64,000 bases of DNA. Origin: Nitrospiraceae bacterium (lineage in GTDB: Bacteria > Nitrospirota > Nitrospiria > Nitrospirales > Nitrospiraceae). Below the pieces are notes generated by a model, which saw only the letters and a list, made by a program, of their open reading frames with translations, did not search any database and was not told the origin of the DNA. Below, piece after piece: positions 999 to 4,664 of the stretch. The stretch lies in assembly GCA_035623075.1 (NCBI GenBank), contig DASPUC010000024.1:124001-188000 (forward strand). The letters run 5' to 3'. Numbering within the stretch: position 1 is the stretch's first letter; each line of letters starts with the position of its first letter. The position numbers were made by a program, and so were the translations under genes.

Positions 999-1426
999 AC
1001 TTCCCATGTGAGCTTGCTGATCGCTGGTTCGTACAAGGCTTGGATGACGTTGCCGTCGGGATCGCAAAAATAGAACGAGTAGCTTCCGTCACGATGCTGT
1101 TTCGGTGGTTGAGCAATGCTGCCGCCAAGGCGACCAATCGCCGGCTCAACGGCCCGATACATCTGATCCACTGCTTGCGGGCTCTCCAGAATCACGCCGA
1201 CGTGATCGAGCAACTGCGGTTTCAGCGGCTGGTAGTCGGCAAGTTCGTGCTTCGCAATCTGGTGGAGGGCAAGATTGTCGGTCCCGGAACTGAAATACAC
1301 GTTGTCGGCATCCGGTTCCCAGACCACCTTCATTCCAAGCAACTGTTCGTAGAATGCGCGTGAACGGGCCAGGTTCGTCACGCGGAGCGCGAGGTGACGA
1401 AGACCACGATGGAGCTGGGTTTCCAT
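983..1426 (-). CDS. VOC-family (glyoxalase/bleomycin-resistance fold) protein
   Basis: The 147-residue protein has the paired beta-alpha-beta-beta-beta modules of the vicinal oxygen chelate superfamily. It begins with GLRHLALRVTNLARSRAFYE, has a central LLDHVGVIL strand, and ends with YSFYFCDPDGNVIQALYEP, the usual VOC C-terminal metal-ligand strand. Candidate metal ligands are the His of HLALRV, the Glu/Asp of the final strand and the His of DHVGV. A longer frame opens at 1477, but the ATG at 1426 has a GAGGAG four bases upstream and starts at the usual distance from the first VOC strand, so it was chosen. The gene is probably co-transcribed with the MBL gene. The substrate is not deducible; typical roles are glyoxalase, dioxygenase or drug binding. 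Confidence 0.85.
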   Translation of the reverse strand: METQLHRGLRHLALRVTNLARSRAFYEQLLGMKVVWEPDADNVYFSSGTDNLALHQIAKHELADYQPLKPQLLDHVGVILESPQAVDQMYRAVEPAIGRLGGSIAQPPKQHRDGSYSFYFCDPDGNVIQALYEPAISKLTWEVAGNS

Positions 1427-1570
1427 ACACTCCTCTGCAGTGACCGTATAGTAGGTGGCTCTTCGGACTCCCGTCAATTCGAATTTCCATGCAAGGAGCC
1501 GGCTGTGGTCCTTGTTGGAGCTATGTTAGGATGGGAGTCGATCCGATCGTGTGGAAAGGAGCCGTCGACC

Positions 1571-2407
1571 ATGCGCCGCTTGTTCGCTGTCATGCCGCTC
1601 ATCTTCACGTTTGGTTTATCACCTCAGCTCCAGGCTGCAGAATCTCCTTCCCATTCAGACCCTAAGACCATAACGGGGAACGATGGAGCACCCATGGTGC
1701 TCATTCCAGCGGGACCCTTCCCCATGGGCGTTCCACCCGGCGATCGAGACGGAGGCCGCGACGAATATCCCCGCCACGAGGTGCGGCTGGATGACTATTA
1801 CATCGACAAATTCGAGGTGACGAACGGACGCTACTTGGAGTTCGTGAAGGCCACGAATCACCGCGTGCCGCAGAATCCCAGGAACCCGACCCGCAATCTC
1901 TGGGAAGGAGTCGCTATACGGGACTCCCTCGTGGACCGTCCTGTCGTCAACGTGGATTGGGCCGACTCCGACGCCTATTGTCGATGGACCGGCAAGCGTT
2001 TGCCGACCGAAGCCGAGTGGGAAAAAGCGGCCAAAGGCAATCACGATTGGCGCTTCCCCTGGGGAAACGTCGAACCCACGAACAAACATCTCAATTACAA
2101 TCAGCAGTGGATCGGTGAGAAGACGTTGATGCCGGTGGGAAGCTACGAAGCAGGCAAGAGCCCCTATGGCGTCTATGATATGGCGGGCAACGTCTGGGAG
2201 TGGGTCACCGATTGGTATGATGCCAACTATTATGAAAAGAGCCCAGCTAAGAATCCCAAAGGCCCGGAAACCGGCACAAAGCGAGTGCTTCGCGGATCGG
2301 GATGGCAAAACGAAACCCCGACCGTCCGCATCTTCACGCGGGTTGACAGTGACCCTGCCATTCGGAACGAATCGACCGGATTTCGCTGCGCCAAGGATGC
2401 GAAATAG
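1571..2407 (+). CDS. Formylglycine-generating-enzyme (FGE/SUMF1) family protein, exported
   Basis: The 278-residue protein has a signal peptide (RRLFAVMPLIFTFGLSPQL, cleaved near QAA) followed by a complete FGE-sulfatase domain. Landmarks are MVLIPAGPFPMG at the domain start, DKFEVTNGRYLEF, VVNVDWADSDAYCRWTGKRL, PTEAEWEKAA, YGVYDMAGNVWEWVTDWYD, and RGSGWQ before FRCAKD at the end. Family members convert a sulfatase Cys to formylglycine, or act as PvdO/EgtB-like oxidases or binding domains. No sulfatase lies nearby and the copper-site cysteines of genuine FGE are not obvious, so the reaction is unknown. The ATG at 1571 was chosen because AAGGAG lies about 9 bases upstream and it begins the signal peptide; the frame is open further upstream without support. 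A second family member lies 1.4 kb downstream on the other strand. Confidence 0.88.
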   Translation: MRRLFAVMPLIFTFGLSPQLQAAESPSHSDPKTITGNDGAPMVLIPAGPFPMGVPPGDRDGGRDEYPRHEVRLDDYYIDKFEVTNGRYLEFVKATNHRVPQNPRNPTRNLWEGVAIRDSLVDRPVVNVDWADSDAYCRWTGKRLPTEAEWEKAAKGNHDWRFPWGNVEPTNKHLNYNQQWIGEKTLMPVGSYEAGKSPYGVYDMAGNVWEWVTDWYDANYYEKSPAKNPKGPETGTKRVLRGSGWQNETPTVRIFTRVDSDPAIRNESTGFRCAKDAK

Positions 2408-2453
2408 TCGTTTCCAGTAAGCCCGTTTCTGACCGGTATGGTACAACCGGTTC

Positions 2454-3719
2454 ATGACCGATTCCGAACAGACGGAACAGCTCAGGACCAAGGCGAAACA
2501 CTTCGCGATCGGCGTCCTCAAGCTCTTTGGCGGTCTGCCGAAAACCCCCGAAACTCATGCGATCGAAGCTCCGCTCGTGAAGGCCGCTACGACGTTAGCG
2601 GCTAACTGCCGGGCCCTTGCGCGGGCTTGGTCTGAAGACGACTTCCTCACCAAACGCGGTGTTGCGGCGGGAGATGCGGACGACTGCGTGTTTTGGCTCG
2701 AATTGCTGAGCGCCGCCGCAACCGACCATGAGCAGCCAGTTCATACACTGCTCGAAGACGTCGCGGAGATCGTCGCGCTCCTCTCGATTTGCGGCGAAGC
2801 GGACCCGCCTGCCTCGCCAGTCGCACCGGCCGATCCCCCCTCTGTCCCGGTTCAAAGCGACCCTCCACCGCCGCCTCTCCCCACCGATTTCCATGGCCTA
2901 CGCGTGCTGTCGTTCGAGAGCCGCATGGCCACCGAGATGACGAAGCTGATCGAACGGCAGGGAGGAGTCGCGGTCGTGGTCCCCGCATTACGAGAGATTC
3001 CGATTCCCCTGCAGGACAACGGGGCTGTGTTCCGCTTTGGTGTGAGACTCATGCTTGGGCAAGTGGATATTCTGATTCTGCTGACCGGCACCGGTACCAA
3101 AGCCCTCTTCGAGGTGTTGCAAACCCGATATCCGATGGCGGAGATCGCAGCCGCCTTAAAGAAGGTCCTCGTCGTCACACGAGGGCCCAAGCCCCAAGCA
3201 GTGCTCAAATTACTGGGCCTCGAACCGAACATCACCGTGCCGGATCCCAATACCTGGGTAGAGGTTGTGTCGACGCTCGACGAGTACCGCCCCGTCAAGG
3301 GGTTCCGCGTCGCAGTTCAGGAATATGGTATGTCCAACCCGGATCTCTTGGAGGCTTTGAAGCAGCGAGGTGCGGAGGTCTTTCCCGTCCCAATCTATCG
3401 CTGGGCTCTTCCAGAAGAGGTGGGGCTGCTGAGGCATGTGATTAGCGAGCTGGTCGATGGGAAGATTGATGTGATGCTGATCACGAATGCTGCTCAGCTC
3501 GACCATGTGATGCAATTAGTCGAGCAGGAAGGGAAAACGGAGCTTTTCAAAGTGGCGTGCAAGAAGGTGGTGGTCGCCTCTATTGGCCCAACCGCCAGTG
3601 AACGTCTCCGTCACTACGATCTCCCCATCGACTTCGAGCCCTCCCGCTCAAAGATGGGCGTGCTCGTGAAGGAGGTCAGTCAGAAGGTCCATGCATTCCT
3701 GCAAATAAAACGCCCCTAA
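2454..3719 (+). CDS. Four-helix-bundle (23S rRNA IVP-type) / uroporphyrinogen-III synthase fusion
   Basis: The protein has 421 residues. Residues ~8-110 have the pattern of the four-helix-bundle family related to proteins encoded in 23S rRNA intervening sequences (KHFAIGVLKLFGGLP, then LVKAATTLAANCRALARA, then ADDCVFWLELLSAA). A Pro/Ala-rich linker (~115-140) leads to a HemD domain (~145-418) with HGLRVLSFESR, LILLTGTGTKALFEVL, KVLVVTRGPKP, VAVQEYG, DVMLITNAAQLDHVMQL and VVASIGPTASERL. HemD closes hydroxymethylbilane to uroporphyrinogen III in cytoplasmic tetrapyrrole synthesis. No other hem gene is adjacent, so this may be a second or divergent HemD. There is no frameshift between the halves: the frame is continuous and the linker is clean, so the fusion looks real. 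The function of the bundle is unknown. Confidence 0.8.
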   Translation: MTDSEQTEQLRTKAKHFAIGVLKLFGGLPKTPETHAIEAPLVKAATTLAANCRALARAWSEDDFLTKRGVAAGDADDCVFWLELLSAAATDHEQPVHTLLEDVAEIVALLSICGEADPPASPVAPADPPSVPVQSDPPPPPLPTDFHGLRVLSFESRMATEMTKLIERQGGVAVVVPALREIPIPLQDNGAVFRFGVRLMLGQVDILILLTGTGTKALFEVLQTRYPMAEIAAALKKVLVVTRGPKPQAVLKLLGLEPNITVPDPNTWVEVVSTLDEYRPVKGFRVAVQEYGMSNPDLLEALKQRGAEVFPVPIYRWALPEEVGLLRHVISELVDGKIDVMLITNAAQLDHVMQLVEQEGKTELFKVACKKVVVASIGPTASERLRHYDLPIDFEPSRSKMGVLVKEVSQKVHAFLQIKRP

Positions 3720-3767: not shown

Positions 3768-4664
3768 CTATTCTATGACATCCCGTGCACAGCGGAATCC
3801 CAGCCAGTTCATTTTTGTGCTGGGATCAGTCCCGTTCCGCTGAGCAGGCCGCACAGAGGGTGTACTGTCAATCCATCCGCCGCCACGAAAGGCCTTCTGG
3901 GTTCCCTTCTCAAGCCCCTTGGGATTCCGGTTCGGTGCCGTCTTGTAATAGTCCGGGTCGTACCAGTCGGCCGTCCATTCTGCGACATTGCCGGCCATCT
4001 GAAAGACCCCGTACGGGCTGACGGCGTTTTCGTACTTGTCGACAGAGATGATCGGTGGATACAGCAGCAGCCGCTCCGGTCGGTCACGCACCGGCCCGGA
4101 CAATCCCGTGCGGCCGAAGTTGGCGCGGCTCAATCCCGCCGGCTGGTTCCCCCAAGGATAGATGCGTCCATCCTCACCTCGCGCTGCCTTCTCCCATTCC
4201 GCCGAGGTGGGTAGGCGCTTGCCGGCCCATCGACAGTACGCATCGGCGTCGAACCAGGAGACGTGCATGACCGGATGGTTGGCCATGGTTTCCTGAAAGT
4301 TCCCACCGTCGTATTGCCAATCGATCAGCGGCGGGAGGTCCTTCGCCAGGACAAACTTCAGGAATTGCACGGTGGTTACTTCGTATTTGTCGATCTCATA
4401 TGCATCCAAGTACACCTTTCGCTGCGGCAACTCCGGCTGGTAGGCGTTGCGATCGACTTTTTTATCGCTCCCCATGATGAACGAGCCCGCCAGGATGCGG
4501 ACCATTTCGTCATGGGCCGGTAATTTGATGCGCTCAGCCGCAAGCTTCTTCCCTTCAGGCGTCCATTCCCTGGTCACGTCAGCGACATCCAACGCCGATA
4601 CCAAGCCATTGATGCTCACCAACGCTGTGATGATCATACTGCCCGCAATTCCTGCCCTTCGCAC
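3768..4664 (-). CDS. Formylglycine-generating-enzyme (FGE/SUMF1) family protein, exported (second copy)
   Basis: The 298-residue protein starts with a signal peptide (AGIAGSMIITALVSINGLVSA) and carries an FGE-sulfatase domain: MVRILAGSFIMGSDK, DAYEIDKYEVTTVQFLKF, VMHVSWFDADAYCRWAGKRL, PTSAEWEKAARGEDGRIYPW, YGVFQMAGNVAEWTADWYD, and RGGGWID before LGFRCARD. It shares the motif order of the copy at 1571-2407 but differs in sequence throughout, so the two are paralogues rather than a recent duplication. The insert around GRTGLSGPVRDRPERL is specific to this copy. It precedes the gene at 4683-5300 in the opposite sense of transcription order: that gene is upstream by 18 bp, so the two are probably one operon. 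The target or reaction is unknown. Confidence 0.87.
   Translation of the reverse strand: MRRAGIAGSMIITALVSINGLVSALDVADVTREWTPEGKKLAAERIKLPAHDEMVRILAGSFIMGSDKKVDRNAYQPELPQRKVYLDAYEIDKYEVTTVQFLKFVLAKDLPPLIDWQYDGGNFQETMANHPVMHVSWFDADAYCRWAGKRLPTSAEWEKAARGEDGRIYPWGNQPAGLSRANFGRTGLSGPVRDRPERLLLYPPIISVDKYENAVSPYGVFQMAGNVAEWTADWYDPDYYKTAPNRNPKGLEKGTQKAFRGGGWIDSTPSVRPAQRNGTDPSTKMNWLGFRCARDVIE

Follow-up and report, generated by a model that had tools for sequence, protein, structure and literature searches.

A lineage-restricted fusion of an S23-IVP-type four-helix bundle to a second HemD paralogue in Nitrospiraceae

We know of no general cellular job for the IVP/S23 family of four-helix bundle proteins (TIGR02436, PF05635). 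The family is named after open reading frames in 23S rRNA intervening sequences (PMC4990558). One such sequence, that of Coxiella, is a small element (428 nt) with an S23 ORF and a terminal stem, and carries 7-nt tandem repeats before the ORF (PMC4990558). The S23p protein of Xanthomonas (2GSC) is a pentamer (PMC4990558, PMC10053308), and Avd, an accessory protein of DGRs, is homologous to the S23-IVP bundle (PMC10053308). On the side of HemD, the closest described case is NnaR, an actinobacterial orphan response regulator in which an N-terminal HemD paralogue is joined to a DNA-binding domain; NnaR of Streptomyces has no HemD activity, and M. smegmatis has another HemD paralogue besides NnaR (PMC6277429).

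The window analyzed here is a stretch of 64,000 nucleotides from a Nitrospiraceae genome, in which positions 2454-3719 of the plus strand form a single open frame of 421 amino acid residues with an ATG start and a TAA stop. The initial annotation read this frame as an IVP-type bundle cleanly joined to HemD, an unusual combination in Nitrospirota, and profiles, AlphaFold and Foldseek show that its domain reading was correct. A literature search, which mostly lay outside subscription papers, found no description of a HemD-bundle fusion or of a bundle-repeat cassette. The features of the locus are as follows.

1394..2407, plus strand: FGE/sulfatase-modifying-factor-like gene directly upstream of the fusion; conserved HemD2 neighbor
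2454..3719, plus strand: fused gene FHB-HemD2, an open frame of 421 residues; same architecture in nine genomes
2454..2789, plus strand: four-helix bundle domain (residues 1-112), TIGR02436 / S23-IVP family, by TIGR02436 score, helices and 2RLD/2GSC fold
2790..2888, plus strand: Pro-rich linker (residues 113-145), with 115-141 predicted disordered, pLDDT below 50 and dN/dS of 0.417
2889..3716, plus strand: HemD2 domain (residues 146-421), a second, divergent HEM4 paralogue, by PF02602 score and 1WCX fold match
3768..4664, minus strand: second FGE-like gene, downstream of the fusion and convergent with it; conserved neighbor

The FGE-like family names of both flanking genes were assigned by sequence inspection, and the true start of the upstream gene probably lies later than in its listed frame. 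In most fused genes a conserved ATGGTACAA-like block is found a few bases 5' of the start codon (window 2430-2453); this block may be an extended -10 element giving rise to a transcript that is leaderless or nearly so.

The TIGR02436 model ("four helix bundle protein") matches residues 12-111 of the window protein with 32.8 bits (cut-off 24), and six of the nine fused members match it at E<=0.001. With PF05635 (23S_rRNA_IVP), the window protein scores 20.4 bits and the isolated domain 24.3, both below the gathering score of 33.8; HMM detection of an IVP domain thus holds with the first model and falls short with the second. A profile built from the bundle domain together with its relatives retrieved a single PDB sequence, 2RLD (E=5e-26). 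The AlphaFold model of the fusion, built with 25 related sequences, has four helices (residues 4-27, 32-56, 61-88 and 90-112), the disordered linker and a HemD fold (mean pLDDT 85.9; bundle modeled alone, 90.7). In Foldseek comparisons the bundle matched the S23/IVP-family structures 2RLD (TM by target 0.81-0.84) and 2GSC (0.77-0.80). While sharing the fold and family profile of these S23-IVP proteins, the window bundle differs from them in being fused and acidic, in lacking the Arg-rich stretch of its relatives and terminal repeats, and in falling below the Pfam gathering score. Unlike the name-giving members of 23S_rRNA_IVP, it sits between FGE-like genes, not in rRNA. Net charge is -2 to -5 in the fused bundles; the stand-alone bundles are close to neutral, with -2 to +1 in separate copies at the same site and -3 to +5 in other genomic copies. 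The acidic charge and the loss of the Arg-rich stretch suggest a changed role for the fused bundle and argue against simple nucleic-acid binding.

The second domain matches PF02602 (HEM4) over residues 161-405 with 105.9 bits (cut-off 27.5) and Thermus HemD (1WCX) with a TM by target of 0.83. It shares the fold, the profile and the conserved YR motif region with HemD enzymes (PF02602; Thermus 1WCW/1WCX), the Tyr region being, as we take it, equivalent to that of the known enzymes. The genome itself contains two HEM4 genes, and the stronger match (226 bits) is a 521-residue protein on contig C37, whose N-terminal half looks like CobA (SUMT) and whose neighbors are hemC-like and hemB-like, all three names being assigned by sequence inspection. 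Since this canonical CobA-HemD is encoded elsewhere, the window HemD, only 27% identical to it, is a second, divergent paralogue, which we call HemD2. Every one of the 58 highly complete family genomes sampled carries a HEM4 gene that scores above the cut-off, and in nearly all of them both a long form (~520-600-residue frame, ~230 bits) and a HemD2 type (~95-140 bits) are present. The best NCBIfam match of HemD2 is PRK07239 (133 bits, model positions 10-276 of 381), the model under which NnaR presumably falls; membership was rejected, as the score is below the cut-off of 273 and the C-terminal domain is absent. Like NnaR, FHB-HemD2 combines a HemD paralogue with a further module in an organism that has a separate HemD, but its module is an N-terminal bundle, and it has no DNA-binding domain. 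Rather than the main heme-pathway enzyme, HemD2 would be a second synthase or an accessory HemD that binds tetrapyrroles or acts as a regulator, as in NnaR. Since the YR motif region is retained, plain synthase activity is conceivable.

The query matched in 169 of the 175 family genomes, mostly via HemD2, which is present in nearly every family member and in its bundle-free form reaches other families of the order. Both domains are covered by a stop-free match in nine genomes (G000, the genome of the window, and G045, G046, G048, G049, G050, G051, G123 and G152); those with names are REEB81, CR1.3, UBA5699, C_No_T0_bin.34, HEB_FP_1_bin.25 and AM_1312, all classed as Nitrospira, Nitrospirae or Nitrospiraceae. 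The other eight fusions are 57-74% identical to the window protein, and the start MTxS is conserved among the nine. A sample of 296 genomes from across the phylum showed no fusion outside Nitrospiraceae. HemD2 lies in a conserved block of epimerase (minus), MBL-fold (minus), FGE-like (plus), HemD2 (plus) and FGE-like (minus) genes, named by sequence inspection. The 81 HemD2 loci examined comprise nine fusions, 18 cases with a separate bundle gene directly upstream on the same strand, and 54 without a bundle. To the question of whether other Nitrospirota HemD carry the bundle, the answer is therefore mixed: HemD2 genes do, but mostly the bundle is a separate upstream gene or absent. Where the FGE stop could be placed, its distance to HemD2 homology is mostly ~5-70 bp (empty sites) or ~420-585 bp (filled sites).

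The separate bundle genes at this spot fall into two clear subtypes, the SVAANYRAACRARS and SIGANVEEAQAGQS types, and a third subtype is found downstream of HemD2 in three loci (L047, L049 and L101). Further upstream of hemD2, bundle genes of other subtypes are seen on the opposite strand in L077, L109 and L111. Broken or truncated copies account for seven of the 18 separate genes and none of the nine fused ones; sequencing errors in the draft assemblies may account for some of the breaks. With ~33 bundle genes in 0.74 Mb of HemD2 neighborhood versus five in the 3.4 Mb of the window's own genome, this neighborhood is a hotspot for bundle genes.

The HemD2 tree requires 16 state changes; for the no-bundle state, at least 10 follow from its starred branches alone. 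One starred clade of ten consists of the nine fused loci and L056, which has no bundle. In a first bundle tree, site copies were combined with the best-scoring TIGR02436 copies, which belong to another subfamily. The long branch at its center results from this sampling, and we therefore used only clades within the site copies. There the fused copies form one clade (100/99) adjoining the subtype-A site genes, on a branch (1.39) that marks strong divergence of the fused bundle. Median pairwise dN/dS among the nine fusions is 0.195 for the bundle and 0.136 for HemD, with the linker at the value given above, all rough values since many pairs approach saturation at synonymous sites. These ratios indicate that both fused domains are under purifying selection. 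In one close pair (L008 and L009), the bundles are 95% identical versus 78% for the HemD domains.

We searched for inverted repeats on either side of the bundle genes, with shuffles, swaps and 300 further genes from these loci for comparison. A score of at least 28 was reached by 13 of 18 site genes, two of three other nearby genes, 19 of 24 bundle genes elsewhere and none of the nine fused genes, as compared with 1.3% of the 300 controls; two of the three top-scoring controls turned out to be bundle genes themselves. The four other bundle genes of the window's own genome scored 29-38. The same threshold was reached by 80% of 80 stand-alone elements, including other families of the phylum, where the elements outside HemD2 loci are the best TIGR02436 matches and not a random sample. 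The flanks show a 7-nt period in the SIPANIAEG subfamily and an 8-nt period in the site subfamily, neither of which is seen in control 5' flanks. Between unrelated neighborhoods, the share of flank pairs scoring at least 28 rose with bundle identity, from at most 1.6% (below 50% identity) to 18% (50-70%, n=268) and 67% (above 70%, n=9), and flank similarity correlated with bundle identity (r=0.291; permuted maximum 0.073). Stand-alone bundle genes (L114-L117 in the own genome, L119-L148 and L237-L265) are usually enclosed by inverted repeats in which a word of 7 or 8 nt recurs in tandem, and the words resemble each other where related bundle proteins occur at unrelated loci. At filled sites (L095 compared with L097; L049 and L082 with L090), the FGE-like gene upstream apparently takes its final codons and its stop from the terminal repeat of the bundle cassette (...MQK* from atgcaaaagtaa).

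The periodic ends resemble the 7-nt tandem repeats of the Coxiella intervening sequence (PMC4990558). In contrast to 23S intervening sequences, the elements described here lie between protein genes and have 7- or 8-nt periodic inverted ends, and the fused copy has no such ends. Stand-alone TIGR02436 genes may well be widespread, tiny (~450 bp), dispersed and probably mobile cassettes bounded by inverted repeats of 7- or 8-nt words, with the hemD2 neighborhood as an insertion hotspot and FHB-HemD2 as a domesticated copy that has lost its ends and taken on a host role. In this reading, bundle clade and terminal word go together, and the bundle protein would probably recognize its own ends. Matching periodic inverted ends could explain the spread of this common "hypothetical" bundle family, and this pattern, based on sequence statistics only, is the more interesting lead of the present work.

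For the fusion itself we favor, with moderate confidence, a lineage-restricted event, namely capture of a bundle cassette on the upstream side of hemD2, followed by its domestication as an N-terminal module. The two domains, their shared position, the single fused clade, the purifying selection and the lack of terminal repeats in fused copies are established, and we infer that the separate bundle form preceded the fusion. A subtype-A cassette would have been captured between the FGE-like gene and hemD2; upon loss of its stop codon and terminal repeats, the bundle would have become the N-terminal domain of HemD2. A recent insertion in the window was ruled out, as no terminal repeats are left at the fused copy. 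That a sequencing or assembly error joined two adjacent genes is hardly conceivable: many relatives do have the two as separate neighboring genes, but frame, start and linker are common to nine genomes and dN/dS is low. Occurrence in nine genomes and purifying selection on both domains thus rule out an artefact.

Capture has to be weighed against an older partnership, in which bundle and HemD2 were an ancestral functional pair encoded in an operon, with the bundle lost many times and fused once; the fusion would then reflect a physical partnership, and no selfish cassette would have been involved. Such an origin is possible because the bundle genes of this spot keep the strand of hemD2 (all 18 separate genes lie just upstream of it) and because the spot is a strong hotspot, its enrichment over the own genome being large; the fused bundle is also under selection. 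However, 54 of 81 HemD2 loci have no bundle, two different subtypes occupy the same spot with further subtypes nearby, seven of the 18 separate genes are disrupted, and the terminal repeats of the separate copies resemble those of bundle genes elsewhere in the genomes. On balance we consider the partnership rather unlikely. Less probable still is the link of an RNA-associated fold with heme synthesis that the initial annotation had drawn, namely that the bundle is an RNA-binding domain serving, for example, HemD regulation or localization. The origin of the family name (PMC4990558) and the homology with Avd (PMC10053308) speak for it. Against it, the Arg-rich stretch is missing from the fused bundle, which is acidic, the fused gene is not located in rRNA, and the main HemD is the canonical CobA-HemD encoded elsewhere, in a hemC-hemB cluster; no RNA role demonstrated for the bundle family was found. 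A search for defense systems gave no PADLOC match.

Under domestication of a captured cassette, the bundle would have been retained as an oligomerization module that holds several HemD2 domains on flexible Pro-rich tethers. Given the disordered linker and the pentamers formed by S23 relatives, multimerization is the simplest role, and by this analogy the fused bundle probably acts as such a module; as it has diverged strongly, the pentamer interface may be lost. The fusion is a clear case of an IVP/S23 bundle that has become part of a host protein and is maintained by selection, and comparing this protein with a version lacking the bundle offers a direct way to learn what the bundle does.

At individual HemD2 loci, several further observations were made. 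A search for bundle relics in L056, L092 and L100 found none. In L092 and L100, a different, mutually similar short ORF (LDVVTLAGTIRDIR... and LDIVTLVGTIREIR...) replaces the bundle between the FGE-like gene and HemD2. UBA5699 (G046) has two HemD2 loci (L035 and L094), of which one is fused and one is nearly identical to that of G122; this MAG is possibly a mixed bin.
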